A DNA stretch of 47,613 nt from a virus. The stretch covers positions 1-47,613 of IMG/VR virus record IMGVR_UViG_3300010370_000060. One strand, 5' to 3'. Of this stretch, positions 1,967-47,520 are shown piece by piece; position 1 is the first letter of the stretch, and each line of letters opens with the position of its first letter. The translations under genes were made by a program, and so were the position numbers. A model generated the notes under the pieces. The model was not told where the DNA came from. It searched no databases and saw only the letters and a list, made by a program, of their open reading frames with translations.

Positions 1967-1980
1967 TTTTTAAATCTCCA

Positions 1981-32416: not shown

Positions 32417-33322
32417 TTACTCTTCGTTGGCTAGACGCTCAAAATAAGATGCAGCATCTTCCTCTTCAGCATCATCCGAAGGGGCCTTCTTCTCTGCCAT
32501 CTTTGGTGGCTTAGAAGTCTTAAACTTAGGTGCTTCAAATTGACTTTCAACTTCATCCATATCTTCAGCAGTCTTTGCACTTGCAGTAGACTCCTTAAGA
32601 ACAGACTTCATCTTGGTAGAGAGTTCATCATAAGACTTAAACTCTGATGGTTGAATAAACTCTTGAAGTTTGTGCTGTTGCTTCCAGATACCCTCTAGTT
32701 TGGCATCATCGCCCCCCATGAGAGGAGCGGCATTGTCAAACTCGCTTTTATCGTAGTTTACATAACCTGCAACCTTACGAATCTTGAGTTTAAAATCTGC
32801 ACCCTTCCAGAAGTCAAAAACGTTTACTGCCTCATCGTCATCAAACTCTGGTTGCAGTTTCTCCATAATCTTATCAAAGATCTTCTTGCCATACTTAAAT
32901 AGGAAGACCTTACCCTCATTTTGAGGATTCTTTGGATCAGAAACAACTAGAACATTTGAGATGTAAGTGAGCTTACGCTTACGGGCACGAGCAACTTCCT
33001 TATCGTCGTCGCTACCACTGTTCCACAGTTCACTGTTTGCTTCACAAACAGGACACTTGCCTCCGATGGTAGTTGGGCAGTTCTCAATGAACCAGCCACC
33101 CTTGCCTTGGAAGCCGTGATTAAAAACACGAACCCAAGGTACATCCTCACCTTCAACAGGAGGAAGGAAACGAATTACGGCATAACCATTGCTTGCTGAG
33201 TCGAGTTCTGGCTTCCAGAATCGATCATCCTTATAACTCTCTGAGCCCTTAACTTGCTTCTCAAGGGCATCTTGAATCTTGCTAAAATCAGTAGACTTCT
33301 TCTTCATATCTTTGAATGACAT
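32417..33322 (-). CDS. gp32: Single-stranded DNA-binding protein gp32
   Basis: Protein of 301 aa, the replication, recombination and repair SSB of T4-like phages (T4 gp32 is 301 aa). Domains in order: a basic N-terminal cooperativity region (MSFKDMKKKSTDFSKIQDAL), an OB-fold core with a zinc site made of His69, Cys82, Cys90 and Cys93 (FNHG ... NCP ... KCPVC), and an acidic C-terminal tail (DDAEEEDAASYFERLANEE) that contacts other replication proteins. Codon choice differs from the neighbours, with many G/C-ending codons (AAG, CTC, TTC), as expected for high expression. It is flanked by its own sigma70-like promoter and a strong terminator. Shine-Dalgarno: AAGGAGA. Confidence 0.96.
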   Translation of the reverse strand: MSFKDMKKKSTDFSKIQDALEKQVKGSESYKDDRFWKPELDSASNGYAVIRFLPPVEGEDVPWVRVFNHGFQGKGGWFIENCPTTIGGKCPVCEANSELWNSGSDDDKEVARARKRKLTYISNVLVVSDPKNPQNEGKVFLFKYGKKIFDKIMEKLQPEFDDDEAVNVFDFWKGADFKLKIRKVAGYVNYDKSEFDNAAPLMGGDDAKLEGIWKQQHKLQEFIQPSEFKSYDELSTKMKSVLKESTASAKTAEDMDEVESQFEAPKFKTSKPPKMAEKKAPSDDAEEEDAASYFERLANEE

Positions 33323-33388: not shown

Positions 33389-33613
33389 TTAAAGTTTAAG
33401 TTTCTGTGATTTAGGTAACAAATTTAAATTTTCACCTTCTTCTTTTAATTGCTGTATTATGGGTTTAGATAAAAATTTTGCAATTAGTTCAGGTTCTATT
33501 GAATATTTTTCACATAAAAATAAGATAGCATCCATGTACGACATTTCTCTGGCTAATACTAAAGATTCTATTTCTTTTTGCACTTTTAAATTATCTTGTT
33601 CTGGTATAATCAT
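33389..33613 (-). CDS. gp33: Late transcription coactivator gp33
   Basis: Protein of 74 aa matching gp33 of marine T4-like phages, which bridges host RNA polymerase (beta flap) and the sliding clamp to activate late promoters. The pattern is the family's: IESLVLAREMSYMDAILFLC, then EKYSIEPELIAKFLSKPI and a basic LNLLPKSQKLKL end. T4 gp33 is longer (112 aa), while cyanophage versions are of this size. Presence of gp33 agrees with the TATAAATA boxes in the window. Shine-Dalgarno TAGGAGA; an AATAAATA late-like box lies 18-25 nt upstream. It is followed by the gp32 promoter. Confidence 0.85.
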   Translation of the reverse strand: MIIPEQDNLKVQKEIESLVLAREMSYMDAILFLCEKYSIEPELIAKFLSKPIIQQLKEEGENLNLLPKSQKLKL

Positions 33614-33630: not shown

Positions 33631-33638
33631 TATTTATT
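33631..33638 (-). promoter_or_regulatory. Possible late-like box (AATAAATA) before gp33
   Basis: One base from TATAAATA and within the relaxed NATAAATA seen in cyanophage late promoters. Predicted start near 33625, 12 nt upstream of the gp33 ATG. It overlaps the epimerase stop. Weak evidence. Confidence 0.35.
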
Positions 33639-34545
33639 ATTTTTTATACTCTTCATTTCGAAGATAATCTAAAAGATCTTTTTTTGGTTCCCAGCCTAAA
33701 AGTTTTTTTGCTTTTGTTATATCTGCGAGAGTATGTCTTGCTTCACCTTGTCTCGGTGCTATATGATTATACTCTCCGCCCATCTGTATTGCAAGTTCTA
33801 AAACTGAAAATGCTTTGTTTGTTCCTATGTTGATTATTTCCGCATTTAGGTTATCTTGTTTATTCATTGCTGCAATGTTTGCTTGAACTACATCAGAAAC
33901 GTGCACATAATCTCTAGTTTGAAGACCATCGCCAACAATGGTCATTGGATCTCCTAATTTTTTCTGCCTTGAAAAAACTCCAATTACTGGAGCATAAGAA
34001 CCACGAACAGGTTGTCTTGGCCCATATACATTAAAGTATCTAAAACAAACGCTATCAACATTATATGTTTCTGAATATAATTTAAATAATCCTTCAGAGA
34101 ATAATTTTGAATAAGAATACATGTTCAAACAATGTGGTGTTAATTTTTCTGTTTGAGGATATGTTTGATTTAAACCATATATTGCAGATGTGCTTGAAAA
34201 CATTATTCTTTTTACACCAAACATTCTACTTGCTTCTAAAATGTTTAATGTTCCCGTTGTGTTTACATTATATGCTTTTATTGGATCATTTATGCAATTT
34301 TGTATTCTGGCTTCTGCTGCCAAATGAAAAACATAATCTGGTTTATGTCTCTCAAAAATACCATTTATAATATGCTTATTTGTTATATCGTCTTTATAAT
34401 AAGTTGCTTTTTTATTATAATAAAATTCATCATGAGCATCAGATGATAGATTATCAATTACAACCACATTATGATTTAAAAGAATTAATTCGTCTACTAG
34501 ATTTGAACCAATAAATCCACAACCACCTGTTATAACAATTTTCAT
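33637..34545 (-). CDS. NAD-dependent nucleotide-sugar epimerase/dehydratase
   Basis: Protein of 302 aa from the start at 34545 (a longer frame begins at 34581, but the ATG at 34545 overlaps the previous stop as ATGA and opens with the fold's first strand). Extended short-chain dehydrogenase family: NAD-binding MKIVITGGCGFIGSN (GxxGxxG), VVIDNLSSD, then SSTSAIYG and the catalytic YSYSK motif, and RYFNVYGPRQPVRG typical of UDP-glucose 4-epimerase-like and related sugar-nucleotide enzymes. It acts on sugar nucleotides in the cytosol and probably supplies the glycan cluster upstream. Which sugar cannot be read from sequence. It is the last gene of the glycan operon. Confidence 0.9.
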   Translation of the reverse strand: MKIVITGGCGFIGSNLVDELILLNHNVVVIDNLSSDAHDEFYYNKKATYYKDDITNKHIINGIFERHKPDYVFHLAAEARIQNCINDPIKAYNVNTTGTLNILEASRMFGVKRIMFSSTSAIYGLNQTYPQTEKLTPHCLNMYSYSKLFSEGLFKLYSETYNVDSVCFRYFNVYGPRQPVRGSYAPVIGVFSRQKKLGDPMTIVGDGLQTRDYVHVSDVVQANIAAMNKQDNLNAEIINIGTNKAFSVLELAIQMGGEYNHIAPRQGEARHTLADITKAKKLLGWEPKKDLLDYLRNEEYKK

Positions 34546-35141
34546 TTTATGCCCTCTTTGATATAAAATGCATCTCCCCAAGTAAAATGATCACACATTT
34601 TTATTTCGGCTCTTGTAAATTTATATTTTTTTAAAAATAAATCTAGATCTTCTAATAAAACACAACCGTCATATAATTCTGTTTTATTAATTTCAGTATA
34701 AATATATTCTATATCAGATAAAGTATCATGTGACCCCTTTAATACCTCTAATTCATATCCCTGAACATCTATATTCATAAAATTACAATTTTTTATACAA
34801 AATGAATCTAGTTTTTTAATCATTACTTCATAATTATTATCAGAAAATGTAACATCAGGATGTTGCAATAAATGATCTTTGGGTTTCAAAAGTGATGAGG
34901 ATTGTTTATTGTTTGAAATAAACATATTTCCGTTTTCTTCTTTAGAACCAAGTGCAAAATTATATTTTTTAACAGAGCAATCTATTTTTTCAAAACAATC
35001 TTTTTGTGGCTCAAAAACGTGTATATTATTTGTGTATGTTTTGTATAATGTTATTTCTTCTCCAATGTGGCCCCCTACGTGTATAATACCATCTAAAATT
35101 ATATTATATTTTTTAATTAAATAATGTAAATCTATTAGCAT
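34542..35141 (-). CDS. FkbM-family methyltransferase
   Basis: Protein of 199 aa of the FkbM-type SAM-dependent O-methyltransferases, often found in surface glycan clusters. Motif I is IIHVGGHIGEEITLY (the SAM-binding Gly-rich loop), then HVFEPQKDCF (acidic residue after the second strand), ending with FMNIDVQGYELEVLKG, the FkbM signature 'x-K/NIDVEG-x-E-x-x-L-x-G'. Likely transfers a methyl group to a sugar hydroxyl. It sits 3 nt after the GT11-like gene and is coupled to the epimerase by ATGA. One of two FkbM-type genes in this cluster, with little similarity to the other. Confidence 0.87.
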   Translation of the reverse strand: MLIDLHYLIKKYNIILDGIIHVGGHIGEEITLYKTYTNNIHVFEPQKDCFEKIDCSVKKYNFALGSKEENGNMFISNNKQSSSLLKPKDHLLQHPDVTFSDNNYEVMIKKLDSFCIKNCNFMNIDVQGYELEVLKGSHDTLSDIEYIYTEINKTELYDGCVLLEDLDLFLKKYKFTRAEIKMCDHFTWGDAFYIKEGIK

Positions 35142-35144
35142 CTA

Positions 35145-35888
35145 TTATCCTTTAAATTCGTTCCAATTGTCTATATTAGTAAAAGCCGAAAACATTCCAA
35201 GATCCCAATTATTTATTCCATATATTTTTTTTTGTGTTTCATTTGTTATAAAATATATATTAGAATTGTTTGAAAATAATGCAGTAATAAAACTAAAAGA
35301 CCCCGCACTTAAAACTAAATTTTTACACTGTGAACCATATCTCACAGTATACTCTGCAGATTCATTTAAAATTTTTAAATTATATTCTTTTGACAATTTT
35401 ATTACAATTTCATCATCGACATTATCACTTGCTATTATTCCAGAATTAAATTTTATTTTTTCTATAGATTTTTTATAATACTCATATGGTAAAGAAAATT
35501 TATTTTTAATATCGCCCAATCTAACATGCACGAATAAATCATTTTTACATTCTAATGTTTTAGGAATTATATATTTTTTATAAGATTCTATTAAATTATT
35601 AATTTTAAATATTTCAGGAGACTGAAAAAAACCATTAATCAGATAAACTCCCTTACATAGTGTTTTTTGTTGTAAAAATGTCATGATATTATCATCATTC
35701 ACTGTATAAAATTGATCATATATTATATTACCAGAAAATTTATTAACTATAAAATGATCATTAAAATTATTATTCCATAAATTTTGATCAAAATATAAAT
35801 TATATTTTTCTGCAATATATTGTGCCATCAAATAAATCAATACATGATTCCCCAACCTCCCATCATATTGTATCCTGACACTACTCAT
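35145..35888 (-). CDS. GT11-like alpha-1,2-fucosyltransferase
   Basis: Protein of 247 aa with the layout of GT11 fucosyltransferases: N-terminal VRIQYDGRLGNHVLIYLMAQ (usual 'GGLGNQ-x-FQYA'), the sugar-nucleotide block FVHVRLGDI (His121, Arg123, Asp126), and a late LSAGSFSFITALF (usual 'SNSSFSWWAA'). These motifs suggest transfer of fucose or a similar deoxyhexose from its GDP donor. The GLG and NSS motifs are altered and the protein is shorter than typical (about 290 aa), so the exact donor is uncertain. It overlaps the methyltransferase-like gene by 4 nt. Confidence 0.72.
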   Translation of the reverse strand: MSSVRIQYDGRLGNHVLIYLMAQYIAEKYNLYFDQNLWNNNFNDHFIVNKFSGNIIYDQFYTVNDDNIMTFLQQKTLCKGVYLINGFFQSPEIFKINNLIESYKKYIIPKTLECKNDLFVHVRLGDIKNKFSLPYEYYKKSIEKIKFNSGIIASDNVDDEIVIKLSKEYNLKILNESAEYTVRYGSQCKNLVLSAGSFSFITALFSNNSNIYFITNETQKKIYGINNWDLGMFSAFTNIDNWNEFKG

Positions 35889-36634
35889 TTTAATTCAATA
35901 TAACACAACCAAGTATAGGATTTACATTCATCATAAAATATTTTATATTTTTCTTTTTCAAATTCATTTAACAATTCGGGTAACGTTTCATAATTTTCTT
36001 CCCATAAATCACCCCATCTTGTAAATTTTGATTTAAAAATTGGTGGAGCTTCTTCGTAAATATTTATTATATTATTTAATAAAATAAAATCATTTTTATT
36101 ATAATCAAACCATGTTTTTTTAGAATTAATATCTATAACATATTTTTTTTGTTGTAATATTTTTTTTATACTATAACAATCGCCTTGGTTATGTGGGTAA
36201 TTGTCCTCAAATATTATTTTTTTTAAATTATATTGTTTACAGTGAAGAAGTCTGGGTAATGCGTCTTGGTGATCATCAAAAAAAACCAATACATTATTTG
36301 ATGAATATTTAGACCAATTTATTTTTAAAAAATCTTCTGTTAAATATTCTGCAGTATTACTTACATATTGTCTGTTGTCCAATACAGGATCTATTGATAT
36401 TATTTTACTATTTGGGCATATTTTTTCAATAAACCAAGTTCCTAATCCCTTCCATATACCACTCTCAATAATTACTTCTGGATTTATTTTTTTTAAAACA
36501 TAATAAAAAGGAAAAAGGTGTGAGGAGTTCATACCGCCGCTGTTATTTTTTATTGGTCTTTTTTCATATAGTGATAAAAAATCATCAATATATTTTTTCA
36601 TATCATCTCTATCAAATAATAAATTATCAATCAT
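35885..36634 (-). CDS. SAM-dependent methyltransferase-like protein
   Basis: Protein of 249 aa with a class I methyltransferase core: EVIIESGIWKGLGTWFIEKI (motif I, E-x-G-x-x-x-G-x-x-T) followed by SKIISIDPVLDN (acidic end of strand 2), then NVLVFFDDHQD and KIIFEDNYPHNQGD. The 'DDHQD...EDNYP' segment resembles cephalosporin-hydroxylase-type and sugar O-methyltransferases of polysaccharide clusters. Substrate unknown. The N-terminal ~45 and C-terminal ~60 residues are not recognised. It is coupled by 4-nt overlaps to both neighbours, so it is almost certainly part of the glycan operon. Confidence 0.7.
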   Translation of the reverse strand: MIDNLLFDRDDMKKYIDDFLSLYEKRPIKNNSGGMNSSHLFPFYYVLKKINPEVIIESGIWKGLGTWFIEKICPNSKIISIDPVLDNRQYVSNTAEYLTEDFLKINWSKYSSNNVLVFFDDHQDALPRLLHCKQYNLKKIIFEDNYPHNQGDCYSIKKILQQKKYVIDINSKKTWFDYNKNDFILLNNIINIYEEAPPIFKSKFTRWGDLWEENYETLPELLNEFEKEKYKIFYDECKSYTWLCYIELK

Positions 36635-37929
36635 ATCTGAAATCCTTTTTTCTCTCCCTTTGAATACGGATAATTGTTTTTTGTAAAATAGTAATCTAAT
36701 GGAGATTTATAATTTAAATTTTTTAAATGTGAAGTTAAATTTAAAAATTCTTGAACTAATTTTTTATCAAGAAATGGATATCTGGTTTCTATACCAAATG
36801 AACCAGCAACACATTCTTCTTTGGATAAATATGATGATTGTGCCCCATAGTAAAAATTTCCATACGGAAATATGGATTGTAAATCCTTCGGAAAACTTTT
36901 AGGATTACTTGTGTTAAACCCATATGTTTGTATGTTTCCCATTATTTCATCACTACCTTGACCGGAAAATAATATTTTAATATTATATTTTATTTTCATT
37001 TCAGATAAAATATCATATAATGCAATTGCACCAACATCATCAAATCCATTATGTGTCACTATTGTTGGATTTGGGCCATAAAAAAATTTTTCAACACTAT
37101 TATTCATTTTTTCTTTTATGGAACTTATATCACTAACTGTTTGTTTTTTATATTTAATTATATTTTTATTACACAATAAACGCTGATTTAATATATTTTG
37201 ATTTTCTGCTCCAATTATAGTGTATGAAATGTAATCAAAATTTTGTTTATTCATTGAACAGCATATAGCACCACTATCATATCCAGAACTCATAGGAATT
37301 AGTGGTTTTAGATTAACATTAAATCTTTTTCTAACTGATTCATCAAAAGCACTACACCAATCATCAAAAGAATTTTTATATTGATTTAAATTAAAATTAT
37401 AATAATTATACTCAGTACTGATATTTGTGCTAATATCATATTCAATAAAGGTGTTGGTTGGTACTTTTGTAATAGTTGTAAAATTAAGTTTTTCTAAATT
37501 AGATTTATATGAAGACACCCCAAAATTATTATTTTCAAATGAAAAATAGCACGGCTTCGTACAGAAGCAATCCACACCAAAAATTATTTTGTTTTTATTA
37601 GAATCATATATGCAAAAAGCAAATTCACCATCGATATTTCTTAACCCATTAATATTATCTGAAATGTAAGCATCTAATATACATTCACCATCACTACTAT
37701 AATTTCCTAATTGTTTATAATTGTAAATTTCTCCATTAAATACCAGATAAATTCCATTTTTTGAAATAGGTTGTGTTGTAAATGATCCAGTTATTGATAA
37801 TAAATTATGAATAATATTTATTCCGTTTAATGAACAAGTTGAGGTATTATCTGGACCTCTTTTTTGTGAATAATAGTTAACAGTATTAATATCTATTATA
37901 TTTTTGTTTGTTACTATAAAACTACACAT
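36631..37929 (-). CDS. Asparagine-synthase-like glutamine amidotransferase
   Basis: Protein of 432 aa with the two AsnB domains. Glutaminase: Cys2 nucleophile (MCSF), RGPDNT (24-29), FNGEIYNY (64-71), SDGECI (79-84). Synthetase: PP-loop PMSSGYDSG (212-220; the usual SGGxDS with one Gly replaced by Ser), FSGQGSDE (321-328), GIETRYPFLD. It takes ammonia from glutamine and an acid activated with ATP. In O-antigen clusters, AsnB relatives turn uronic acids into amides, so sugar amidation is likelier here than asparagine supply. It is shorter than bacterial AsnB (~500-630 aa), ending soon after the synthetase core. Coupled to both neighbours. Confidence 0.88.
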   Translation of the reverse strand: MCSFIVTNKNIIDINTVNYYSQKRGPDNTSTCSLNGINIIHNLLSITGSFTTQPISKNGIYLVFNGEIYNYKQLGNYSSDGECILDAYISDNINGLRNIDGEFAFCIYDSNKNKIIFGVDCFCTKPCYFSFENNNFGVSSYKSNLEKLNFTTITKVPTNTFIEYDISTNISTEYNYYNFNLNQYKNSFDDWCSAFDESVRKRFNVNLKPLIPMSSGYDSGAICCSMNKQNFDYISYTIIGAENQNILNQRLLCNKNIIKYKKQTVSDISSIKEKMNNSVEKFFYGPNPTIVTHNGFDDVGAIALYDILSEMKIKYNIKILFSGQGSDEIMGNIQTYGFNTSNPKSFPKDLQSIFPYGNFYYGAQSSYLSKEECVAGSFGIETRYPFLDKKLVQEFLNLTSHLKNLNYKSPLDYYFTKNNYPYSKGEKKGFQI

Positions 37930-37930
37930 T

Positions 37931-38539
37931 TTATTTTATTATTAAATAATAATCCCTAGTATTTATTTTATTATAGACAGAATATTTATTTAAAAAATTA
38001 TTTAATATGTTTATTTCATTGTTACTATTATGAAATTCAACTAAAATTATTTTGGGATAAATTGAATTTTTAATCATATAATCTAAAATAGCATATTCGG
38101 AACCCTCAATATCCATTTTTAAAACATCTATTCTGTTATGATTTAATTCCTTCATGATTGTTTTTAAAGTTTTTACAGGTAACTCTATTGTATTTTCTGT
38201 TTTTTCAGCGGTTTCACTGTAACTGACATATTCTAATTTTGGTGGCAAATTAAAATATGAAATACCATCGAATGCACTAACACCGATTTCTCTAAAAATA
38301 AATTTATTAGGTAATTTTTGTTTTTTTATCCATTCGATGCATCTGGGAGTGGGGTCAAATGCATTTACTGTAACGCCACAATTATCAATCATTTCAATAT
38401 CAAATGATATATCAGTTCCAACACCAAAACTATAAACAATATCTGTTTGTTTTATAATACTCGGATCAATTGCCCAACCACCATAATTAGTTCCGTAATA
38501 TGTTAATTTAACATCATTTCCTGATATTTTTTTAATCAT
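37931..38539 (-). CDS. FkbM-family methyltransferase
   Basis: Protein of 202 aa, second FkbM-type enzyme of the cluster. The SAM site is IVYSFGVGTDISFDIEMI (Gly-rich motif I), with VNAFDPTPRC after it, and the signature LKMDIEGSEYAILDYMI matches FkbM 'KxDIEGxE-x-x-x-L'. KIILVEFHNS follows. Likely a sugar O-methyltransferase. It differs clearly from the 199-aa enzyme, so two distinct methylation steps are implied. It overlaps the exostosin-like gene by 4 nt and is followed after 1 nt by the AsnB-like gene. Confidence 0.85.
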   Translation of the reverse strand: MIKKISGNDVKLTYYGTNYGGWAIDPSIIKQTDIVYSFGVGTDISFDIEMIDNCGVTVNAFDPTPRCIEWIKKQKLPNKFIFREIGVSAFDGISYFNLPPKLEYVSYSETAEKTENTIELPVKTLKTIMKELNHNRIDVLKMDIEGSEYAILDYMIKNSIYPKIILVEFHNSNNEINILNNFLNKYSVYNKINTRDYYLIIK

Positions 38540-39342
38540 TTTGAATCCCCATCGAAATAATAATTGATTGATTTATATAAATTTTTATTAGAGTAATGTT
38601 CCCAATAAATGTCAATCATTTCTTTACGAAGTTTTTCATCGTATTTAGTTCTTAAATCCTCTAAAAATTTTTTAGATATTTGTTGAATATCACATCTTAT
38701 AACAAATTTTTCTAATTTATTTGGTATTTTTAAATTATTAAAAATAATTGGAAAACTTCCAGCCGATATACTTTCATATAAACGTAGAGATGATGGTCCT
38801 GTTCCCTGTGGGCAAAATGAAAAATAACTATTTTGTAAAAAATGTTTATATTTTTTATTTAAATTTTGTTTTTCTTCTTCGTTTTTATAAAAAAACCAAC
38901 CATTTGTATCAATTATAGGTAAAAAATTATTAAATTTAATCAATTGTTTTCTTATTTCATGTGTAGAAAAATCTCCCATAAAACTACAAAGATACTCATT
39001 ATTTTTATAATGTATTTTTGTATTGTATGATGGATTATAATGAGGAATACAAATATTACCATCATCAGATGTTGTGTGTGGAGTAAAAACATAATTATCA
39101 CCAAAATATAACCTATTTACACTTATATGTTGACAAACATATATTTTTTTAAAATTATATTTTGTATTAATGTCATTTATTATTTGTTGTGTTTTAATTA
39201 CACCTACAGTATTTAAACTATATGCAATGGGTATTGCTACATAATTTAATTTATGATTATTTTTAAAATAATCATATACACATCTTTCAGTTTTTATTGG
39301 ATCTTTTTCTTGATCGAATGTTATTGCATCAGATACTATCAT
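38536..39342 (-). CDS. Exostosin-like (GT47-type) glycosyltransferase
   Basis: Protein of 268 aa. The strongest feature is NSYFSFCPQGTGPSSLRLYE followed by SISAGSFPIIFNN, the nucleotide-sugar block of exostosin/GT47-type enzymes ('F-C-L-P-x-G-x-x-x-x-S-x-R-x-x-E-A-x-x-x-G-C-I-P-V-I'). CSFMGDFSTHEIRKQL upstream fits the 'F-x-G-x-x-x-x-x-x-R' strand of that family. Acts on activated sugars, donor unknown. It overlaps the next gene upstream by 14 nt and the FkbM gene by 4 nt. Confidence 0.78.
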   Translation of the reverse strand: MIVSDAITFDQEKDPIKTERCVYDYFKNNHKLNYVAIPIAYSLNTVGVIKTQQIINDINTKYNFKKIYVCQHISVNRLYFGDNYVFTPHTTSDDGNICIPHYNPSYNTKIHYKNNEYLCSFMGDFSTHEIRKQLIKFNNFLPIIDTNGWFFYKNEEEKQNLNKKYKHFLQNSYFSFCPQGTGPSSLRLYESISAGSFPIIFNNLKIPNKLEKFVIRCDIQQISKKFLEDLRTKYDEKLRKEMIDIYWEHYSNKNLYKSINYYFDGDSK

Positions 39343-39973
39343 TTAATTTTTCTTTTACTTTGTCTATTAATTTGCTTTTATTGTCAACACCCACTGTCCA
39401 ATTTGCATGCATCATCAGAATATTTTTATTTAAGTGTGGAATATCTATATTTGGATTCCAAACTTGTTGACCTATTATATGATGTATATTAAAATATTTT
39501 AAATCTAAAATTTTTGATTTTATATAATCATGTCTAAAATGGTTCATTGCGTGTTGATCATTTCCAAATTTACTCATATTATTAAGAACTGTCTCAAATA
39601 ATTTTTTAGTTTTTTCGTTTCCTCTACAGGCAAAAAATCCACACGATATTGTATTCCCACCATCGTCTATTCCTATCATATCACAATCTTCCATTTGATT
39701 CAGCAAATCATCTTTAAACTGTTTAAAAAAATAAACATCACAATCTGAATGGATAAAAACTTTATTCGGATTTTCTTCTATTCCTCTTAAAACATAAGAT
39801 ATTTTTTTGTGCATAGTTTGCATCCACCCAGATTCCATAAAATTGCCACTTGAACATTCTTGTGGAAATTTTTCAATAATAACTTCAAAATTATCATCTT
39901 TAGGAATTGATGATAAAAAATAATTATTTAATAATGAGATATGAGAATCTGTATAGAATGTATAAAGTTTCAT
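39329..39973 (-). CDS. Small DxD glycosyltransferase-like protein
   Basis: Protein of 214 aa of GT-A type layout. The metal/nucleotide motif is FIHSDCDVYFF (Asp77-x-Asp79), preceded by GWMQTMHKKISYVLRGIEEN and followed by MIGIDDGGNTISCGFFACRG, an acceptor-side strand and turn. KFGNDQHAMNHFR is like the 'DQ-x-x-L/M-N' motif of many GT-A enzymes. Its 'SGW ... K ... D-x-D' order resembles the three tandem proteins at 43621-45502, so it may be a distant paralogue. It has no membrane segment. Donor and acceptor unknown. Confidence 0.7.
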   Translation of the reverse strand: MKLYTFYTDSHISLLNNYFLSSIPKDDNFEVIIEKFPQECSSGNFMESGWMQTMHKKISYVLRGIEENPNKVFIHSDCDVYFFKQFKDDLLNQMEDCDMIGIDDGGNTISCGFFACRGNEKTKKLFETVLNNMSKFGNDQHAMNHFRHDYIKSKILDLKYFNIHHIIGQQVWNPNIDIPHLNKNILMMHANWTVGVDNKSKLIDKVKEKLNDSI

Positions 39974-40650
39974 ATATTTAATTCCTTTTTAATTTTTTCT
40001 ATAGTTGGATATAAATCATATCTTTGCCAATATTCCCATGCATTTGCATCCGATTCTGTTGATTTAGTAACCTCAAGATAATTTTCATCCATTTCTGATT
40101 TTTTAGCACCTGGGTGCATATGTTCAATTATAATATCTGGAGTATATACTAATCTATTCAACCCAGAACCTATACTCATCCAATAATTATCAGTCCACAT
40201 ATGATTAAATTTTGGATCGTACATATATCCTAAAATATCAATAATATTTGTTGTCATTAAACAAGAAGAGGCTAATTTATGTCCTTGGTGTAAATCGTTA
40301 CCATATACAACGGCAATACCATTCATATTGTTTACATATTCTAAAAATATTTTATCCCATTCTTTTGTTCGAAATAAATGATCATCTCCCATAAAAAGAA
40401 TACACGAATATTTATCTTTAATTTGTAAGTATGCTCTATTCATTGGGTCAACTATCCCCCTTCTTCCAACTGGAACCACTATTTTATTGGCATCTAGATC
40501 TAAATAAGTATTTGTATCATCATCATCTATTATAAAATATAAATCTGAATATTTAGAATTTGATGTTAATTCATATGACCCCTTTAACCTTATTGCATTT
40601 TGCAATCTGTGTTTTGTTGGACACATAACAGCAATTTTTTCAGGTTTCAT
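39970..40650 (-). CDS. GT2-like glycosyltransferase
   Basis: Protein of 226 aa with a GT2-like GT-A core: IAVMCPTKHRLQNAIRLKGS at the start ('P-T-x-x-R'), DLYFIIDDDDTNTYL, and the DxD-like LFMGDDHLFRTKEWD (Asp89-Asp90-His91). WTDNYWMSIGSGLNR and IIIEHMHPG follow, the last typical of the C-terminal base-His region. The usual GT2 enzyme is longer, so this is a minimal domain. It overlaps the neighbouring genes by 4 nt on each side. Confidence 0.72.
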   Translation of the reverse strand: MKPEKIAVMCPTKHRLQNAIRLKGSYELTSNSKYSDLYFIIDDDDTNTYLDLDANKIVVPVGRRGIVDPMNRAYLQIKDKYSCILFMGDDHLFRTKEWDKIFLEYVNNMNGIAVVYGNDLHQGHKLASSCLMTTNIIDILGYMYDPKFNHMWTDNYWMSIGSGLNRLVYTPDIIIEHMHPGAKKSEMDENYLEVTKSTESDANAWEYWQRYDLYPTIEKIKKELNI

Positions 40651-41345
40651 AGCAACTCCTTTACTAGATCATTATACATTTCTAATTTTTTACTTTCTTC
40701 ACAAGGGGGTCCTTGGGTTCTTCCGATATACATATCACCTTTTCTGGGGGTCGGCCAATCGTGTGTTTTGTCACCAAATGGATTATCGTTATCGTGTACT
40801 ACTCTATCGCCTTCAAATAAGGGATATATCATTTGTGAAAGATAGTTTTGATCTGTTGGTTGTCTTCCTTCAACTTCTAAGCATTTTTTAATAATAGAGT
40901 CGAGTTTGTTATTTTTTCTTAGACCCCACATACCACCCATTACTTTAGATCTGTGTCCGGGTTGAACTTCACGCATAAGGTGAATAGATTTGCCTGTTTC
41001 TATCCACTGATTTACTGCATCTCTTTCTCTTTCACATGGATAACTGTCGGTGTCTCTAAAAATAACAATATTTACTACTGGATCTTCATACGCTAAAAAT
41101 CTCCAAAACATCCTAGTTGAATGATTAGTTCTAAATCTATCCAAATTATTATTCGTCATATCTATGAGATTCACATTTGAATATGTTTTGAGTTTGTTTA
41201 ATACTGTTTGTGGAACTGTAGTATCATAATAAAATCTAGATTCCCAATCTGGGTATAAATCTTTACAAATGTCTGCGTTAATTATTGCATTAATAACGTA
41301 TCTCGGATCTCTACCATATAAAGAATAAGATATTACCTTTTTCAT
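40647..41345 (-). CDS. Glycosyltransferase-like protein with RDTDS motif
   Basis: Protein of 232 aa. KKVISYSLYGRDPRYVINAI at the start and IVIFRDTDSYPCERERDAVN (Asp98-x-Asp100) give the GT-A nucleotide-sugar motif; MGGMWGLRKNN and PTDQNYLSQMIYPLF follow, the last matching the 'D-Q-x-x-L' motif. Similar proteins in marine phages and bacterial polysaccharide loci are listed as hypothetical or glycosyltransferase. Donor unknown. Embedded in the operon with 4-nt overlaps. Confidence 0.7.
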   Translation of the reverse strand: MKKVISYSLYGRDPRYVINAIINADICKDLYPDWESRFYYDTTVPQTVLNKLKTYSNVNLIDMTNNNLDRFRTNHSTRMFWRFLAYEDPVVNIVIFRDTDSYPCERERDAVNQWIETGKSIHLMREVQPGHRSKVMGGMWGLRKNNKLDSIIKKCLEVEGRQPTDQNYLSQMIYPLFEGDRVVHDNDNPFGDKTHDWPTPRKGDMYIGRTQGPPCEESKKLEMYNDLVKELL

Positions 41346-42118
41346 ATATTTTCCTTTAATATTAAACTAACAAGTCTGTCTATTTTTTGTTTATGTTGTG
41401 AATATGGCCTAGCCACATGTGAATCTAAATAATACTCATTCAATATAGAATCTTCATTAAATTTATTCCACGAGGCTGTTCCTCTATCTAATCTTCTTGC
41501 ACAGAATCCTCCAGGTCTCGGTGGATTATATAAAATATTACTATCAACATTATTATGAAAATGTGTTATTTTTTTATTACAATACACTTCATCGGCAAAC
41601 CAATATTGTAATTCTAGCCCATGTGTGGGTCTGTGTGTATGTGCTTGGTGCCTCCATTCCGTTTGTTCCATAAACGATTCAAAAGTTTCAGGTAAATCTA
41701 AAACTTTTTTAAATGTTTTACCTTTAGCAACATTATAACAAATAGAATTTGAACCTATGACATGAGCATTTAAATTAATAAACTTATCATCAGATATATT
41801 GTAAATATTATCTATAAAATACTGTCTAGAAATAGGAAACATATCGATGTCTGATGTTGCCCATGTAGTATCTGGTTCCAAAGAAGGAAAAAATAATCTA
41901 GAACATTGTGCTTGTGTGTTTACTGGAATATCTTTTAATGGTTCTAGATATAAAACTGATCCATATTCCTCACTTACCTTTATATTTTTATCATCATGAA
42001 TTAAAATTAAAACAGGATGTATGTTAAATTTTTTTTTCCATATCTTAGAAACCAATGGCCAAAAATCCAAATAATATGGATTAGTAGTTGAACTTAAAAT
42101 AACTTTTTCTATTTTCAT
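41342..42118 (-). CDS. Glycosyltransferase-like protein with SDIDM motif
   Basis: Protein of 258 aa from the ATG at 42118; this start was chosen because it forms an ATGA overlap with the upstream stop, whereas the longer frame from 42160 lies in that gene. N-terminus MKIEKVILSSTTNPYYLDFW is a plausible first strand, WATSDIDMFPISRQYF carries Asp90-x-Asp92, and FADEVYCNKK fits the acceptor-side 'D-E/Q' position. ARRLDRGTASW toward the end is unassigned. A GT-A type transferase is likely; substrates are unknown. Confidence 0.65.
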   Translation of the reverse strand: MKIEKVILSSTTNPYYLDFWPLVSKIWKKKFNIHPVLILIHDDKNIKVSEEYGSVLYLEPLKDIPVNTQAQCSRLFFPSLEPDTTWATSDIDMFPISRQYFIDNIYNISDDKFINLNAHVIGSNSICYNVAKGKTFKKVLDLPETFESFMEQTEWRHQAHTHRPTHGLELQYWFADEVYCNKKITHFHNNVDSNILYNPPRPGGFCARRLDRGTASWNKFNEDSILNEYYLDSHVARPYSQHKQKIDRLVSLILKENI

Positions 42119-42801
42119 CGCACTTCCTGTATTGTGTGGTGTTCTTTTGGACCCTTCCAATATGGTCCAGGAACTGTTGGTGGATTATTTTGTGGTCTTG
42201 CCATATGGTTGTGCCAAGTTACTATAGATTTTGCTGGATTATAAACTCTATAACCCGCCTCAACAAAACATTGCATTATTCTACCATCGCATGCATAATA
42301 TCCTATTGGAAAAATTGCATTTTTAACTTTACATTCACCTTTCCAAATCCAAACATCATTACTTTCTGGTGCAGCTTTTCCTTGCATGTGGTGCCCTCTT
42401 GCAAGATAGGCCGTATCATTTGGTAAATACCATCTACTCAACCCGAGAGCTATATTATTTTTTAATTTTTTATCAATTTTTGATATGGTATCTGTAAAAA
42501 TAATATCAGCATTTGCTAATATGTTTATATCATTCTTATTTTTTGCTTCGGGTAAATCAAAAATCTGTTGATATGTTGTTCTATAAGGATCATATTTTGA
42601 CCTGTTATCAGGTGTATGATCTATTCTTCTTACCTTGGTGGTTTTGAATTCAATCCAGTTTGGAAAAATTGTTTGTTTTGGTGTTATTAAATACACATTA
42701 TCAAAATATTCTAATTTTTCGTTTATAAAAAGAGAGTCTTCATATTCTCTTTGACGACATGAATTATCAGATACAATATACTCAATGAATAAATTTTTCA
42801 T
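42115..42801 (-). CDS. Glycan-cluster protein, possible glycosyltransferase
   Basis: Protein of 228 aa. ILANADIIFTDTI (Asn97-Ala-Asp99) could be the sugar-nucleotide motif, with LSRWYLPNDTAYLARGHH and DVWIWKGE downstream ('D-x-W-x-W/F' is common at the acceptor side). The C-terminal CFVEAGYRVYNPAKSIVTWH resembles the closing strand and His of GT-A enzymes. The evidence is weaker than for its neighbours because no classical DxD is present. It overlaps the GT10-like gene by 20 nt and the next gene by 4 nt. Confidence 0.55.
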   Translation of the reverse strand: MKNLFIEYIVSDNSCRQREYEDSLFINEKLEYFDNVYLITPKQTIFPNWIEFKTTKVRRIDHTPDNRSKYDPYRTTYQQIFDLPEAKNKNDINILANADIIFTDTISKIDKKLKNNIALGLSRWYLPNDTAYLARGHHMQGKAAPESNDVWIWKGECKVKNAIFPIGYYACDGRIMQCFVEAGYRVYNPAKSIVTWHNHMARPQNNPPTVPGPYWKGPKEHHTIQEVR

Positions 42802-43624
42802 AAAAATAATCTTCCGCTATTGGCATTTGTTTAATTTTTTCTATATTATTTAATATAGATTGTTTTTTTGATTCGTACAATTCTTTTGTTAATGTTGTTA
42901 TTATATCATCTTTATATAGAATGATTCCATCTCTATCAAAATGCTCAAATACATCCGGATCGCCGTGGTATATTGGGATGACACCTTTGGCAAAACAATC
43001 TGTTATTTTTTCTGTAAAATAACCAGGATATGAATCATTCTCGAAAACAACTGAAAACATATACGGGTCTAGTGCTTCTTTTTTATCTCTATGTGCACCC
43101 GTTCCTTCACCAGGTCTAATGCTACCATGAGCACCACCATACAAATCTAATTTATTTTTTAAATTTAAAGCGACACTTAATCTATAGCGATGACCCTCTG
43201 AATAATCTTTCGGAGAGCATATCATTGACACTAATTTATTTTTTTCTGGTATTTTTACACCATCTCTAGCAAAACACCAAGGTAGATTGCTGCCAGAATA
43301 TGTCCATTTTATTCTATCATCTAATTTACACAATTCTTTTTCGCATGTAAACAAATATTTGTATTTTGATAATATTTCTTCTTTATTTGTAAAAAGTCTA
43401 TCCCTTACTTTTCTAGCATCACCTATAAACCTAGATTCACATATCCATGCATATTTTTTATTGTGATATGGTGTATTTAATCCTTGAAAGATACCACCAT
43501 CAATATACACTTGTATTTCTTGTCTTTCTCTTGTCCAGATAAAATTTTTAGGGGTTAATGTAGAACATGAAGAATGTTCTATTGTAAATGGACATCCTAT
43601 TCCTTGTATTTTTATTTTACTCAT
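42782..43624 (-). CDS. GT10-like alpha-1,3/4-fucosyltransferase
   Basis: Protein of 280 aa with the GT10 fucosyltransferase signature near its end: FSVVFENDSYPGYFTEKITD, followed by CFAKGVIPIYHGDPDVFEHF (family 'F-x-x-x-F-E-N-S-x-x-x-x-Y-x-T-E-K-x-x-x-A-x-x-x-x-x-x-P-V/I-Y-x-G'). The segment RYRLSVALNLKNKLDLYGGA fits the preceding 'R-x-x-x-x-x-L-x-x-x-x-x-x-D-x-Y-G' block. So fucose (or a similar sugar) from a GDP donor is the expected substrate. The N-terminal half is divergent. It overlaps the gene upstream by 4 nt and the one downstream by 20 nt. Confidence 0.83.
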   Translation of the reverse strand: MSKIKIQGIGCPFTIEHSSCSTLTPKNFIWTRERQEIQVYIDGGIFQGLNTPYHNKKYAWICESRFIGDARKVRDRLFTNKEEILSKYKYLFTCEKELCKLDDRIKWTYSGSNLPWCFARDGVKIPEKNKLVSMICSPKDYSEGHRYRLSVALNLKNKLDLYGGAHGSIRPGEGTGAHRDKKEALDPYMFSVVFENDSYPGYFTEKITDCFAKGVIPIYHGDPDVFEHFDRDGIILYKDDIITTLTKELYESKKQSILNNIEKIKQMPIAEDYFYEKFIH

Positions 43625-44226
43625 AAAGCAGGTCTTCCTCTATTTATTTGAGCCATTTTTCTGTGAACTTCTGCTTTACCCTTGGCATGTGAATTTTTAT
43701 TTATTATATAACGACCGTCGCAATAATCATTAAAATTATTTTCAATTATAAAAATTGATATTTGTGTATGTATTTTAGGAATCACTGCATGTTTTAGAGC
43801 ATCATGATCTAATTCAAAACCGTTTTGTTTTAATCCATTTTCACAAGCATCTATCCAAGAATCAATTATAAAATTAAATTTTTCACCATGCTTAAAATAC
43901 ACAGGAGATGCTTTTATTCCTTCTATGTTCCCTGTATGAGATGCAAACCCAATGTCGTGTGTTATGTTATCAAAAGCATTAAAAGATTCTCTCAATTCCG
44001 TATCACAATCCATCCATATCAGATCACATTTATGCTTCTCCATCATGTCTTTTATAAATTTAGGTTTTCTCAAACAATTTAACATGTAAGAACCTAGAGA
44101 TGGGAGTTCCACTATTTCGTGTGAAATATTTAAACGATTGCACGCAGCAATTAAATATTTTCCATGTTGGCTATAATAAGTTCCGCCATCCACATCCGAA
44201 TAAAAACTTATCAATTTTGGTTTCAT
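43621..44226 (-). CDS. Tandem GT-A-like paralogue 1
   Basis: Protein of 201 aa, the most diverged of three tandem relatives. Shared layout: N-terminal ISFYSD strand, ISHEIVELPSLGSYMLNC (G-S-x-x-x-N-C), a helix, and LIWMDCDTELRESF (Asp73-x-Asp75). The DxD and the aromatic before it fit a nucleotide-sugar-binding GT-A core. KHAVIPKIHTQISIFIIENNF follows. Function inferred only from layout and context. Confidence 0.65.
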   Translation of the reverse strand: MKPKLISFYSDVDGGTYYSQHGKYLIAACNRLNISHEIVELPSLGSYMLNCLRKPKFIKDMMEKHKCDLIWMDCDTELRESFNAFDNITHDIGFASHTGNIEGIKASPVYFKHGEKFNFIIDSWIDACENGLKQNGFELDHDALKHAVIPKIHTQISIFIIENNFNDYCDGRYIINKNSHAKGKAEVHRKMAQINRGRPAL

Positions 44227-44879
44227 TTTATCTGCTTTCTCATTTTTCTACTTGCTTGCATGTGTTCTATCACTACAGCTTCTTCTTTTTCGAACCAAGA
44301 GCAATCAAATACTTTACAATAACTCTGTGGAAAATTAAATGTCTTTAATCCCTGTTTATCGTATTTATCCCAAACTTTTTGTAGACTTTGTTGTTCCCAC
44401 ACAGTTGGATTCGCTTCACTCTCTTTCTTCCAATCATGTATCATTTCTATTGCAATTTTTGTATTATTAAAAAACATTGTTCCGCCAGCAAGTGCCTCAT
44501 TACCTCTATCTGGTCCCCAAGGACGTAGATGTTCATTTGAAGGCTTATTCCATACATTTGGAATCCAATAACAACCAAAATCATATGATTCTAATTGTTC
44601 AAATAATTTTGGTTCGGCTCTAAATCGTGCATCTGCATCAGTCCACACAACACCACATTTTAATTCATTTAAAGCAGTAAGAACAACTTCGGCTTTCATG
44701 GTACAATTTTTAACCCAAGATCCTTTATTTTCTTTTTCATATGATTTAAAAGGATATTGTTTGGTTTGATTGTCTCCTGGATATTTTAATTCTGGTTGCA
44801 AAAAATAATGGCAAGTTTTTCTCCACTCATCCACTTCATTTTTATATTCTGGTGTATAAAATGTTATAACTGCTATCAT
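44223..44879 (-). CDS. Tandem GT-A-like paralogue 2
   Basis: Protein of 218 aa with the same order of motifs: AVITFYTP strand, KGSWVKNCTMKAEVVL (G-S-W-x-x-N-C-x-x-K), and VVWTDADARFRAEPKLFEQL (Asp81-x-Asp83). FDFGCYWIPN-like turns follow (here YDFGCYWIPN), then GGTMFFNNTK and WEQQSLQKVW, the last matching the 'D/E-Q-x-x-L' acceptor motif. Overlaps its neighbours by 4 nt each. Confidence 0.7.
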   Translation of the reverse strand: MIAVITFYTPEYKNEVDEWRKTCHYFLQPELKYPGDNQTKQYPFKSYEKENKGSWVKNCTMKAEVVLTALNELKCGVVWTDADARFRAEPKLFEQLESYDFGCYWIPNVWNKPSNEHLRPWGPDRGNEALAGGTMFFNNTKIAIEMIHDWKKESEANPTVWEQQSLQKVWDKYDKQGLKTFNFPQSYCKVFDCSWFEKEEAVVIEHMQASRKMRKQIK

Positions 44880-45502
44880 TTTCTGTCAACCTTTTGCATA
44901 CTAGATGCTAAATCATGTAAAATTATTGCTTTATTCATTCCATGTAACTTATTTATCTGACAATATTCTCTGGGTAACCATTCAGTTGAGGGATTTATAT
45001 TACACCATGCTTGTTGTAAAGACCACTGATCCCACGATCTCTTCCATTCATTTTTTATTTTTAACCATTCATTACATAAGTTTATAATATTTGGACACTT
45101 ACGCAAAAAAAGTGTTCCGGAATTAAACCAAGCAGGGTTCATTCCTTGGGGCCAATTTTTAGGCAATTCTATTTCCTCTCTCCCTGCGGGTGCTCTTTTT
45201 CGTGGACCAGGTTCAGCACGAACTCCAAATTCTTTATCACAGACAAAAAACAAATACGGATGCTCCATTATTCGAGCATCCGCATCTATCCAAATTAAAC
45301 ATTCATCATTCTGTGCTAAATTTAATTGTTCTATTATATAATTTATTTTATAATTACAATTATCAACCCAAGATCCTAAATCATCTCTTCTTCTTATTTC
45401 GTAAGATAGTGAAAATCTTTCACAAGAATCTTTAAGCCTTTTGACTAATTCAGGATATACGCCTGTATTTGTGTAATATGAAATTATTTTAACTTTGTTC
45501 AT
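44876..45502 (-). CDS. Tandem GT-A-like paralogue 3
   Basis: Protein of 208 aa. KIISYYTNTG strand, LGSWVDNCNYKINYII (same G-S-W-x-x-N-C-x-x-K block), CLIWIDADARIMEHPYLF (Asp73-x-Asp75), then NSGTLFLRKC and WDQWSLQQAW. Closest to paralogue 2, consistent with local duplication. A transferase of sugar from a nucleotide donor is likely; donor unknown. Its first 14 nt overlap the exonuclease gene's end. Confidence 0.7.
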   Translation of the reverse strand: MNKVKIISYYTNTGVYPELVKRLKDSCERFSLSYEIRRRDDLGSWVDNCNYKINYIIEQLNLAQNDECLIWIDADARIMEHPYLFFVCDKEFGVRAEPGPRKRAPAGREEIELPKNWPQGMNPAWFNSGTLFLRKCPNIINLCNEWLKIKNEWKRSWDQWSLQQAWCNINPSTEWLPREYCQINKLHGMNKAIILHDLASSMQKVDRK

Positions 45503-46154
45503 TTAATTGTAAATTGTATTCTTTGATTATATTAAATAGAGGTTCTACGTAATTTTTAGGATCTTCTTCGTGACAATGAATTGTTCCGTCATCACAAGAC
45601 ATTAAAATTGCAATATTTTTAATAGATATACCTGTATGTTCTTTGAACATTATGGAATATGCTGTAGCTTGCATAAAATATTCTTGAATATCAGACTTGT
45701 ATTTTTCTCTAGAGCAGGTTTTAAAATCTATTACTGATAATTTTTTATTATATTCCGCTATACAGTCAACTCTACCTGCTAATTTTAGCAAATCTGAATA
45801 CATAGGAGATTCTAATAAATGAATATTATCTATGTTATCCAGCATTTTTTGAAAATTAACAAATAAATGATAATTTGCAAGATCGTCTTTTGTTGGTGCA
45901 CCCTGATTATTTAAATATTTTTCAATTACACTATGAAAACTATTTCCTCTTTTAGTGACTCTTTTTGCTTCTTGGGGATTATTCTTTCGCCATTCTGCAA
46001 AAAACTTTTTCTTTTTAAATCCAGTAACAGTTGTAACTGATGGATAAGATGTTGTATTGTTTATTTTGTAGTGTCGTTTACCGTCTAATTCAACAGCAAC
46101 AACATCTTCCGAAAGATTTAAACTTTCTATTTTTACATGATTAAAAATTTTCAA
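45489..46154 (-). CDS. PD-(D/E)XK exonuclease (MGME1/RecB-like)
   Basis: Protein of 221 aa common in marine T4-like phages. N-terminal half: KRHYKINNTTSYPSVTTVTG, then RGNSFHSVIEKYL, the helix with the His-Glu-like motif of RecB/MGME1 nucleases. Catalytic core: LAGRVDCIAEYNKKLSVIDF followed by KTCSREKYK (Asp in GRVD, then D-F-K). QEYFMQATAYSIMF matches the closing 'Y-x-x-Q-x-x-x-Y' (QxxxY) motif. It would degrade or trim DNA ends in recombination or host DNA breakdown. It has no visible link to glycan work and is embedded in that cluster. Shine-Dalgarno AAAGGA. Confidence 0.85.
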   Translation of the reverse strand: MKIFNHVKIESLNLSEDVVAVELDGKRHYKINNTTSYPSVTTVTGFKKKKFFAEWRKNNPQEAKRVTKRGNSFHSVIEKYLNNQGAPTKDDLANYHLFVNFQKMLDNIDNIHLLESPMYSDLLKLAGRVDCIAEYNKKLSVIDFKTCSREKYKSDIQEYFMQATAYSIMFKEHTGISIKNIAILMSCDDGTIHCHEEDPKNYVEPLFNIIKEYNLQLNEQS

Positions 46155-46164
46155 TTGTATTCCT

Positions 46165-46962
46165 TTAAAGTTTTTTAACTTTGCTTATCAGCTGCATGTA
46201 TTTAGACACCGAATCTTTATACTCTGCATTCTTTGTTTCAATTTTCTCTTCAATTATATTTTGTTTTTCTAGTTTTGTTTCTATTAATTTATTTACTAAT
46301 TTTTTTTTTAAATCTTCAACTATATTATCAGTTAATTTTGGAACAATATTGTCAAATATTTGACCACACTCCCAAGAATACCAATTGTAACCTTTTCTTT
46401 TGGCTATTGGATACCATTGTACCATAGCACCATGAACTTCATCTAATGTTCTTTTAAAATTATGTTTTTTCTTTATATCTGTTTGTGTTACTTGATAGCA
46501 ATATTTAGATTCCATACTATCGGCTGATAAATCATTACCAGCAAATATTATATTTTTAAATCCAACAGAATGTGCCCACTGAATACCAAAGGTGATTGAT
46601 TTGTGTGGCCCTCTTGCAAAAGATCTAGAAAAATCAAATAAATGTTGTTCGGCTTCAAATGTGCGATTATTTGTAAAACTTCTGTATGCATGAACATTTT
46701 TTCCAGGAAGGTGATTTGATGTTTTTCCTTCTTGAACAATTTTAATTATTTGTTCCGCAACGTAAACCTGTTTTCCTTCTTCACCATGCATTTCATTTAA
46801 ATAATCGGAATAAATCCATATATGTGGATTTGTTATTTTTCTAATAGTTGTGCTTATTGCTGCAACAGGAAATCCTAAACTAAAAACATCAACTTTGTTT
46901 AGGGATGGCCCAGAACACGCAAATACTATTGTTTCATAATTTTTTAAATCGTCAAATAACAT
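46165..46962 (-). CDS. DUF115/MAF-like Rossmann-type protein
   Basis: Protein of 265 aa. The N-terminus ETIVFACSGPSLNKVD is the 'GxGPSL' motif of DUF115/motility-accessory-factor and GT42-related proteins, used with nonulosonic acids (pseudaminic, legionaminic, sialic) or other sugars. FKNIIFAGNDLSADS and KSITFGIQWAHSVG fit the rest of such a fold. The C-terminal ~60 residues are a Lys/Glu coiled coil. Function as a transferase for the glycan cluster is an inference; such proteins are also found singly in marine phages. It begins 15 nt after the 167-aa gene stop. Confidence 0.62.
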   Translation of the reverse strand: MLFDDLKNYETIVFACSGPSLNKVDVFSLGFPVAAISTTIRKITNPHIWIYSDYLNEMHGEEGKQVYVAEQIIKIVQEGKTSNHLPGKNVHAYRSFTNNRTFEAEQHLFDFSRSFARGPHKSITFGIQWAHSVGFKNIIFAGNDLSADSMESKYCYQVTQTDIKKKHNFKRTLDEVHGAMVQWYPIAKRKGYNWYSWECGQIFDNIVPKLTDNIVEDLKKKLVNKLIETKLEKQNIIEEKIETKNAEYKDSVSKYMQLISKVKKL

Positions 46963-46977: not shown

Positions 46978-47481
46978 TTAAGGTCTTCTAGCGAAATCTG
47001 CTTCTGCTTTCTTAATCAGCGTTGTTGCCTTTACTGCATTTCCGCCTGCCTTTTTAACTGCGTCACATCTAATATTAAAAAGTTCTTGTTGCCTGAGTGC
47101 AGCCTCTAATTGTTCTTGTGCATTATCTATACTAACAGCATTTCCTGTTCTGTTTGCTCTTACTAATGCGCTTCGTGCATTAGAAACATTTGTAGCAACC
47201 ACTCTACCGTCAATTTTACAATGTGTCAGCAAATCATTAAATCTATCTTCATCTGATAGTCTTTTTTCGGCACTTCGTTTACCTGCTCCAAAAGCACCTT
47301 CAATTGCACTAGTGTCAACCCCGATTTGAGCAGCTGCTCCTCTAGCAACAGTTCCAGCAAGAGAAAGAGCCCCCCTGCCTATACCCCTACCAACAGCAGC
47401 AGCTATAGATCCTATAGATTTTCCTGCTAATTCTCTAAATTCGTTTAATTGTTTTGAAATTTCGGTAAATGTTTTTGCCAT
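46978..47481 (-). CDS. Hypothetical Ala/Gly-rich protein, possibly virion-associated
   Basis: Protein of 167 aa, not recognised. The N-terminal third is a helix rich in Gly/Ala (GSIAAAVGRGIGRGALSLAG), perhaps membrane-interacting; the rest is helical with many Ala, Arg and Asn (SNARSALVRANRTGNAVSID). Composition differs from the sugar genes downstream and is nearer the tape-measure-like protein. A late promoter box about 32 nt upstream and a terminator behind it point to a separate late unit, in agreement with a structural or internal-head role, but no function is claimed. Confidence 0.6.
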   Translation of the reverse strand: MAKTFTEISKQLNEFRELAGKSIGSIAAAVGRGIGRGALSLAGTVARGAAAQIGVDTSAIEGAFGAGKRSAEKRLSDEDRFNDLLTHCKIDGRVVATNVSNARSALVRANRTGNAVSIDNAQEQLEAALRQQELFNIRCDAVKKAGGNAVKATTLIKKAEADFARRP

Positions 47482-47512: not shown

Positions 47513-47520
47513 TATTTATA
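47513..47520 (-). promoter_or_regulatory. T4-type late promoter for the 167-aa gene
   Basis: Exact TATAAATA on the minus strand, predicted start near 47507, leader of ~26 nt to the ATG at 47481. It abuts the terminator hairpin at 47524-47553, a compact end-then-start arrangement. Confidence 0.6.

Follow-up and report, generated by a model that had tools for sequence, protein, structure and literature searches.

What does a T4-like phage build with a 13-kb run of sugar-handling genes, and on which surface does the product end up? We addressed this question in a 47,613-base viral record of IMG/VR (IMGVR_UViG_3300010370_000060; 'the window' below means this whole stretch of DNA), which has a T4-like gene order and carries at 33637-46962 an unbroken row of 18 minus-strand open reading frames (ORFs) concerned largely with glycans. 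Glycan clusters of T4-like marine phages are already known (PMC3037559, PMC7029224, PMC9602691) and have been reported for years, among them the large 'LPS' (lipopolysaccharide) clusters of P-SSM2, S-SSM7 and S-SM2 (PMC3037559) and the glycosyltransferases (GTs) in host-recognition islands of pelagimyophages (PMC7029224); such clusters might act on the host or on the virion. A preliminary description of the row had contrasted it with T4 alone, a comparison that misses these published clusters (PMC3037559, PMC7029224) as well as that of S-SCSM1.

A fixed-site island with constant ends and an exchanged centre

Neighbouring ORFs in the row mostly overlap by 4-20 nt (mostly as ATGA), internal gaps are at most 10 nt, and the row lies 23 nt from gp33 and 15 nt from the gene that precedes it. 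All frames are open and coupled, and Pfam and NCBIfam matches bear out the earlier description of 33637-46962 as a coupled multi-enzyme glycan operon. Its estimate of about 17 glycan genes agrees with the 16 coupled glycan-type or glycan-context genes at 33637-45502 plus an MptE-like gene at 46165-46962, while the ORF at 45489-46154, inside the run, is not a glycan gene. It encodes a PD-(D/E)XK exonuclease, a T4-like and cyanophage core gene (phrog_298, 1.7e-61; 906 phage records) that served as a flank marker. The markers of the other flank, also on the minus strand, are the genes for the late-transcription coactivator gp33 (33389-33613; PF16805, 8.8e-20) and the single-stranded DNA-binding protein gp32 (32417-33322), the latter with its own sigma70-like promoter at 33386-33359.

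Scans with gp32, the MptE-like protein and the small glycosyltransferase GT_g yielded about 30 related contigs; all island-bearing relatives are metagenomic fragments, and their gene calls were mechanical. The order in these relatives is exonuclease, MptE-like gene, GT_h, often an extra SDR gene, GT_g, a variable run, an epimerase, gp33 and gp32, and relative to the sister contigs the window has the exonuclease and MptE-like genes exchanged. The exonuclease was found directly upstream of the MptE-like gene in 25 of the 26 untruncated loci, GT_h came next after the MptE-like gene in 28 of 29 loci, and the conserved end genes, at 44-75% identity, recurred in about 30 contigs. When 16 islands were clustered at thresholds of 28% identity and 60% length, on both of which the counts depend, 225 proteins were sorted into 82 clusters, 44 with a single member, and near-universal presence was limited to the GT_h/GT_g family (15 of the 16 islands) and the epimerase (14 of 16). 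The variable genes, tallied as the 25 commonest Pfam families among 66 representatives, encode FkbM and other methyltransferases, GT2, GT25, GT47, GT6, GT15 and GT11 enzymes, Glf, DegT aminotransferases and a GNAT acetyltransferase. The exonuclease-gp33 interval is free of glycan genes in one relative (L169), in Methylophilales phage Melnitz, in pelagiphage Mosig and in P-SSM2. At the level of sequence, these comparisons establish the window run as one allele of a fixed-site island with constant ends and an exchanged centre. Over most of gp32 the window and a short contig (L002) share about 93-97% identity; immediately upstream of the epimerase start the two are no more alike than by chance, a pattern that would fit exchange through recombination within the conserved end.

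One island (L205) has the exonuclease and the MptE-like gene but no recognised GT_h, GT_g or epimerase, and would represent a minimal or diverged form. Upstream of the island, L177, L178, L180, L182, L185, L188, L195 and L196 carry tRNA arrays of up to 15 tRNAs, and several of them hold permuted tmRNA genes (tags e.g. ANELAMAA). The corresponding interval of Melnitz and Mosig contains a tmRNA, of which no trace was seen in the window; nor did we find there any tRNA or tmRNA as an integration site.

The island resembles the cyanophage LPS clusters (P-SSM2, S-SSM7, S-SM2, S-SCSM1) in that a T4-like genome brings together many GTs, nucleoside diphosphate (NDP)-sugar epimerases and methyltransferases, and it has what characterizes marine T4-like (Kyanoviridae-like) clusters, namely several GT and NDP-sugar genes in a T4-like structural and replication context. 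In P-SSM2, however, the clusters lie elsewhere and the exonuclease and gp33 genes are adjacent. S-SCSM1 shares with the window a single run of AsnB, GTs and methyltransferases, but also has GDP-sugar synthesis genes. The pelagimyophage host recognition cluster (HRC) is likewise hypervariable, contains GTs and belongs to a related T4-like group (PMC7029224); it is located amid the tail-fibre genes, with VrlC and gp14 on either side, whereas the island stands between exonuclease and gp33, contains no fibre genes and has conserved ends. The gp14/gp13-like and fibre-like genes of the window are found at 58-12472. Three features are new, to judge from the collections and literature that we compared: the constant position of the island between exonuclease and gp33; the combination of exchanged centres with a phage-specific base of MptE-like protein, GT_h and GT_g; and an operon head made up of a terminator and a late-promoter-like sequence.

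The MptE-like (DUF115) protein, present in 29 viral contigs, fell short of PF01973 at the sequence level (20.9 bits, where the cut-off is 34.6), had no match among 50,697 phage records and was not detected in bacterial genomes by a pattern scan. A PDB sequence search with this protein and GT_g gave nothing useful, and only fold comparison was informative. The structure model (pLDDT 90.5, pTM 0.85) best matched the Maf flagellin glycosyltransferase 5mu5 (Z 13.2, root-mean-square deviation (rmsd) 3.9, 183 residues aligned), with further matches to archaeal HPPK (Z 11.5) and CstII-type sialyltransferases (Z about 10). The fold of the Maf central GT domain is thus present in the model, and it is also found in non-Maf enzymes (CstII, HPPK). 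As modelled, the protein is a predicted glycosyltransferase that very probably belongs to the Maf/HPPK/CstII superfamily, and this fold gives no reading of the acceptor. The two other conserved genes at this end encode small GT-A proteins: GT_h (44876-45502; IDAD motif), a putative glycosyltransferase with 47-55% identity across the sampled islands and a PF03407 match below cut-off (3.5e-3), and GT_g (44223-44879; TDAD motif; PF03407, 4.7e-9), with relatives in 32 viral contigs at 58-75% identity and one weak match only among the phage records. At the gp33 side the conserved gene is that of the NDP-sugar (GalE-type) epimerase (33637-34548 after a shift of its start from 34581; PF01370, 1.6e-59), whose nearest solved relative is the UDP-glucose 4-epimerase 4zrm.

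Central genes and their chemistry

From GT_g towards gp33, the centre begins with GT_f (43621-44226), a paralogue-like small putative GT with an MDCD motif and no Pfam match that clusters with GT_g and GT_h. It is followed by a GT10 fucosyltransferase-like gene (42782-43624; PF00852, 3e-9), which by tblastn has relatives in 19 phage records, mostly of cyanophages, and homologues in sister islands; a degenerate-pattern scan of viral contigs returned no GT10 relatives, a limitation of that scan. The putative glycosyltransferases GT_e (42115-42801; no Pfam match) and GT_d (41342-42118; SDID motif; start shifted from 42160 by alignment) occur in three and six of the compared islands, respectively, the window included in the case of GT_e. 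For GT_c (40647-41345) the predicted structure (pLDDT 80.6) indicates a GT8-like GT-A glycosyltransferase, matching glycogenin (Z 14.7, rmsd 3.4, 197 aligned) and LgtC (Z 13.1). Next come GT_b (39970-40650), of a phage glycosyltransferase family (phrog_14945, 1.4e-40), the GT-A glycosyltransferase GTA_a (39329-39973; PF03407, 8e-14), an exostosin/RXYLT1-like GT47 (38536-39342; PF24785, 5e-10; PF03016, 3e-9) and FkbM methyltransferase 2 (37931-38539; PF05050, 2.1e-13; TIGR01444, 1.5e-14). The gene at 36631-37929 encodes a short AsnB-type glutamine amidotransferase of 432 aa (GATase_7, 5e-14; Asn_synthase, 4e-11) with about 60 viral relatives. It has the N-terminal Cys and the SGGxDS-type ATP motif of such enzymes: among 11 aligned homologues Cys2 is invariant and the motif, here SSGYDSG, is kept with small substitutions. 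The row is completed by a methyltransferase-like protein recognised by sequence motif alone (35885-36634; no family match; 46% identical to a gene that neighbours AsnB in L095/L096), a GT11-like gene (35145-35888) and FkbM methyltransferase 1 (34542-35141; PF05050, 1.6e-17).

Among the families named in the preliminary description, the epimerase, the two FkbM proteins, AsnB, GT10 and the exostosin-like protein were all matched, and GT11 was only marginal (PF01531, 2.2e-5; 24.3 bits against a cut-off of 23.9). The many small GT-A proteins that it listed are supported by the GT_c fold and by PF03407 matches in three island proteins, one of them under cut-off; five small putative GTs and the methyltransferase-like protein have no Pfam match above cut-off. 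Several small GTs were assigned by position, by DxD-type motifs, which are kept in many island GTs, or, for one, by predicted fold alone.

Six window genes within 35145-40650 were absent from all other compared islands: those for the GT11-like protein, the methyltransferase-like protein, AsnB, FkbM methyltransferase 2, the exostosin-like protein and GT_b. Most of this segment has a GC content of 22-26% (24% in the AsnB block) as compared to about 31% elsewhere. GT_b, GTA_a, exostosin, AsnB and FkbM methyltransferase 2 all have homologues, side by side, in an otherwise different contig (L082), and in S-SCSM1, an isolated cyanophage, AsnB lies between GTs and methyltransferases. Because of this low GC content, the absence from sister islands and the co-occurrence in L082 and S-SCSM1, the AsnB block looks like a recent acquisition, part of a module that moves between phages. 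In L082/L171 (IMGVR_UViG_3300020179_003101) the GT_b-GTA_a-exostosin-AsnB-FkbM module is located downstream of a QueE-like gene. The suggestion that the same operon might be found in bacterial O-antigen loci was not borne out: AsnB relatives occurred in 33 genome contigs (Prochlorococcus, Roseibium, Desulfobacteraceae and others) with no other module genes beside them, a distant epimerase alone being common.

A simple hydropathy scan predicted no membrane helices: all Kyte-Doolittle segments of the window's island proteins stayed at or below 1.6. As the preliminary description had it, no flippase, polymerase or export gene was recognised. Neither the window genes nor the first 25 families of the relatives include a recognised flippase, polymerase or lipid-carrier initiating transferase, the hallmarks of a Wzx/Wzy O-antigen locus, and no membrane-bound Gtr-like gene was recognised in the islands. 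With a single NDP-sugar enzyme in the window island and no recognised initiating lipid-carrier transferase, to speak of a full surface-glycan programme was an overstatement.

Putative transcription signals at the head of the operon

A strong intrinsic-terminator hairpin (47513-47560, minus strand; dG -26.9) runs into TATAAATA at the putative operon head. This late-promoter-like sequence, the core of T4-type late promoters, occupies 47513-47520 at the hairpin foot, 39 nt before the run's first gene (start 47481). The same composite of terminator and TATAAATA, with other stem sequences, was found upstream of the island in seven relatives (L193-L196, L198, L202 and L205). TATAAATA occurs within 100 nt upstream of six window genes, where 0.64 would be expected (Poisson P about 5e-5, an optimistic value because intergenic sequence is AT-rich). 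The product of the operon's first gene (46978-47481, minus strand) had no significant family match; its capsid-targeting-like N-terminus (MAKTFTEISKQLNE) suggests a late virion or internal-head protein. From these features we infer that the operon is transcribed from a terminator-insulated late promoter, after the gene of this putative head protein.

N-termini of the MKTF...LDE type, followed by unrelated sequence, were also seen in genes that lie upstream of the exonuclease in relatives, at L177:6848, L185:6755, L193:2313, L194:2299, L195:7914, L196:8133 and L198:3540; we take them, as a lead only, to recall the T4 capsid-targeting peptides of internal head proteins. In several other relatives TATAAATA stands about 810-830 nt ahead of the exonuclease (L164:1192 and L165:2021, with equivalent positions in L180, L182, L188, L189 and L204) and precedes a conserved, apparently non-coding block (GTGGTTGGAGGGATTTGAATACCGGGGATCG...), for which Rfam gave no convincing match in L165.

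Virion or host as the acceptor

The preliminary description allowed for decoration of virions as well as for remodelling of a host glycan, and both fit the island as we find it. Our own proposal, in which we place about even confidence, is that the island is a fixed-site, serotype-like locus of an uncultured T4-like lineage, making a glycan late, stepwise and in the cytosol, with the virion as acceptor. The late promoter behind the terminator would transcribe the putative head-protein gene and then the island, whose soluble enzymes would build the glycan step by step in the host cytosol. The Maf/CstII-fold enzyme would lay a conserved base together with GT_h and GT_g, and the swapped GTs, FkbM methyltransferases and AsnB would make a variable tip, AsnB possibly amidating a sugar acid or similar. 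The acceptor would be a virion protein, the weakest step of the proposal, and each phage would then carry its own sugar coat. We favour virion decoration over host LPS because of the predicted late transcription, the soluble enzymes, the lack of recognised lipid-carrier machinery and the Maf-like fold.

Precedents exist for parts of this scheme. Mycobacteriophage capsids are glycosylated (as cited in PMC11256854), and flagellin glycosylation by Maf and FlmG takes place in the cytoplasm (PMC4065374, PMC7591256). Like Maf and FlmG, the MptE-like protein would be a soluble O-glycosyltransferase, and its model has the Maf central-domain fold; it differs in that it is only about 14% identical to Maf, lacks the length to hold the remaining domains of Maf (632 residues), and is accompanied by no flagellin. 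Capsid glycosylation in PBCV-1 is similar in its virus-encoded small soluble GTs, one of which (2p6w) is among the Foldseek matches of GT_c (E 1.9e-6), but PBCV-1 is a eukaryotic virus and the match is at fold level only and weaker than that to glycogenin. More tentatively, the island could be a particle 'serotype locus', in which a phage-specific Maf-like base trio and a cassette-swapped tip, expressed late, give each virion type a distinct coat from one site.

Several observations weigh against a virion acceptor or against late synthesis of the glycan. No acceptor protein was identified. Among the enzymes in the fold class of the MptE-like model are also a lipooligosaccharide (LOS) sialyltransferase, CstII, and a pterin kinase from an archaeon. 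LPS-core glycosyltransferases are likewise soluble, so that the absence of membrane helices is compatible with a lipid acceptor. Over the whole window TATAAATA is not enriched in total, and gp33 is needed for late transcription and yet stands last in the run, so that an earlier promoter must also exist. Finally, the authors of the pelagimyophage study prefer modification of the O-chain (PMC7029224).

The strongest alternative, to which we assign a substantial probability though one short of even, is that the island remodels host LPS/LOS or capsule during infection and so blocks adsorption of competitor phages, the variable tips reflecting phage competition. Host remodelling has been inferred in print for the pelagimyophage and cyanophage clusters (PMC7029224, PMC9602691). 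It would fit with the CstII-type LOS sialyltransferase among the nearest folds of the MptE-like protein, with the GT25 'LPS biosynthesis', Glf and DegT families of the islands, and with the occurrence of AsnB relatives in bacterial genomes, Prochlorococcus included. On the other hand, a late-promoter head would give the phage little time in which to exclude others, the islands show no recognised gene of the lipid-carrier, flippase, polymerase or membrane-bound Gtr-like kinds, and the bacterial AsnB loci lack the other module genes. The two remaining explanations are unlikely. That the island is largely non-functional stuffer DNA filling the head, as was once proposed for the cyanophage LPS clusters (PMC3037559), is very improbable given the open and coupled frames, the retained AsnB catalytic residues and DxD motifs of many GTs, and end genes conserved in about 30 contigs. 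Least probable of all is DNA modification against restriction in the manner of the T4 alpha- and beta-glucosyltransferases: T4-like phages are known for DNA glucosylation, but the 10 relative records searched (all fragments) had no PF00303 (thymidylate synthase/dCMP hydroxymethylase family), sixteen enzymes including FkbM, AsnB, GT10 and GT47 go far beyond the needs of DNA glucosylation, and the GT sets are swapped wholesale.

As to the phage itself, its T4-like genes include gp13/gp14-like head-closure and adaptor genes, baseplate and tail genes, gp32 and gp33. The gp32 protein is 58% identical to that of S-PM2, and gp6 is 36% identical to those of Melnitz and Mosig. No PsbA-family gene, an indicator of a cyanophage host, was found in the 10 relative records, all of which are fragments. 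A tail-tube-cap homologue (phrog_230; 27231-28026) is spread over two overlapping ORFs with the first ~350 profile positions unmatched, and may reflect a frameshift or a divergent short form; phrog_358/DUF4815 matches two successive genes (12485-14539 and 6602-12472), which look like the separated parts of a single long protein.

With one site, constant ends, a variable centre and relatives that have no glycan genes at the site, the island family amounts to a natural experiment on the target of such clusters. If the virion is the acceptor, phages would possess a diversity of surface glycans like that of bacterial serotypes, with consequences for adsorption, grazing and the competition of phages in water.

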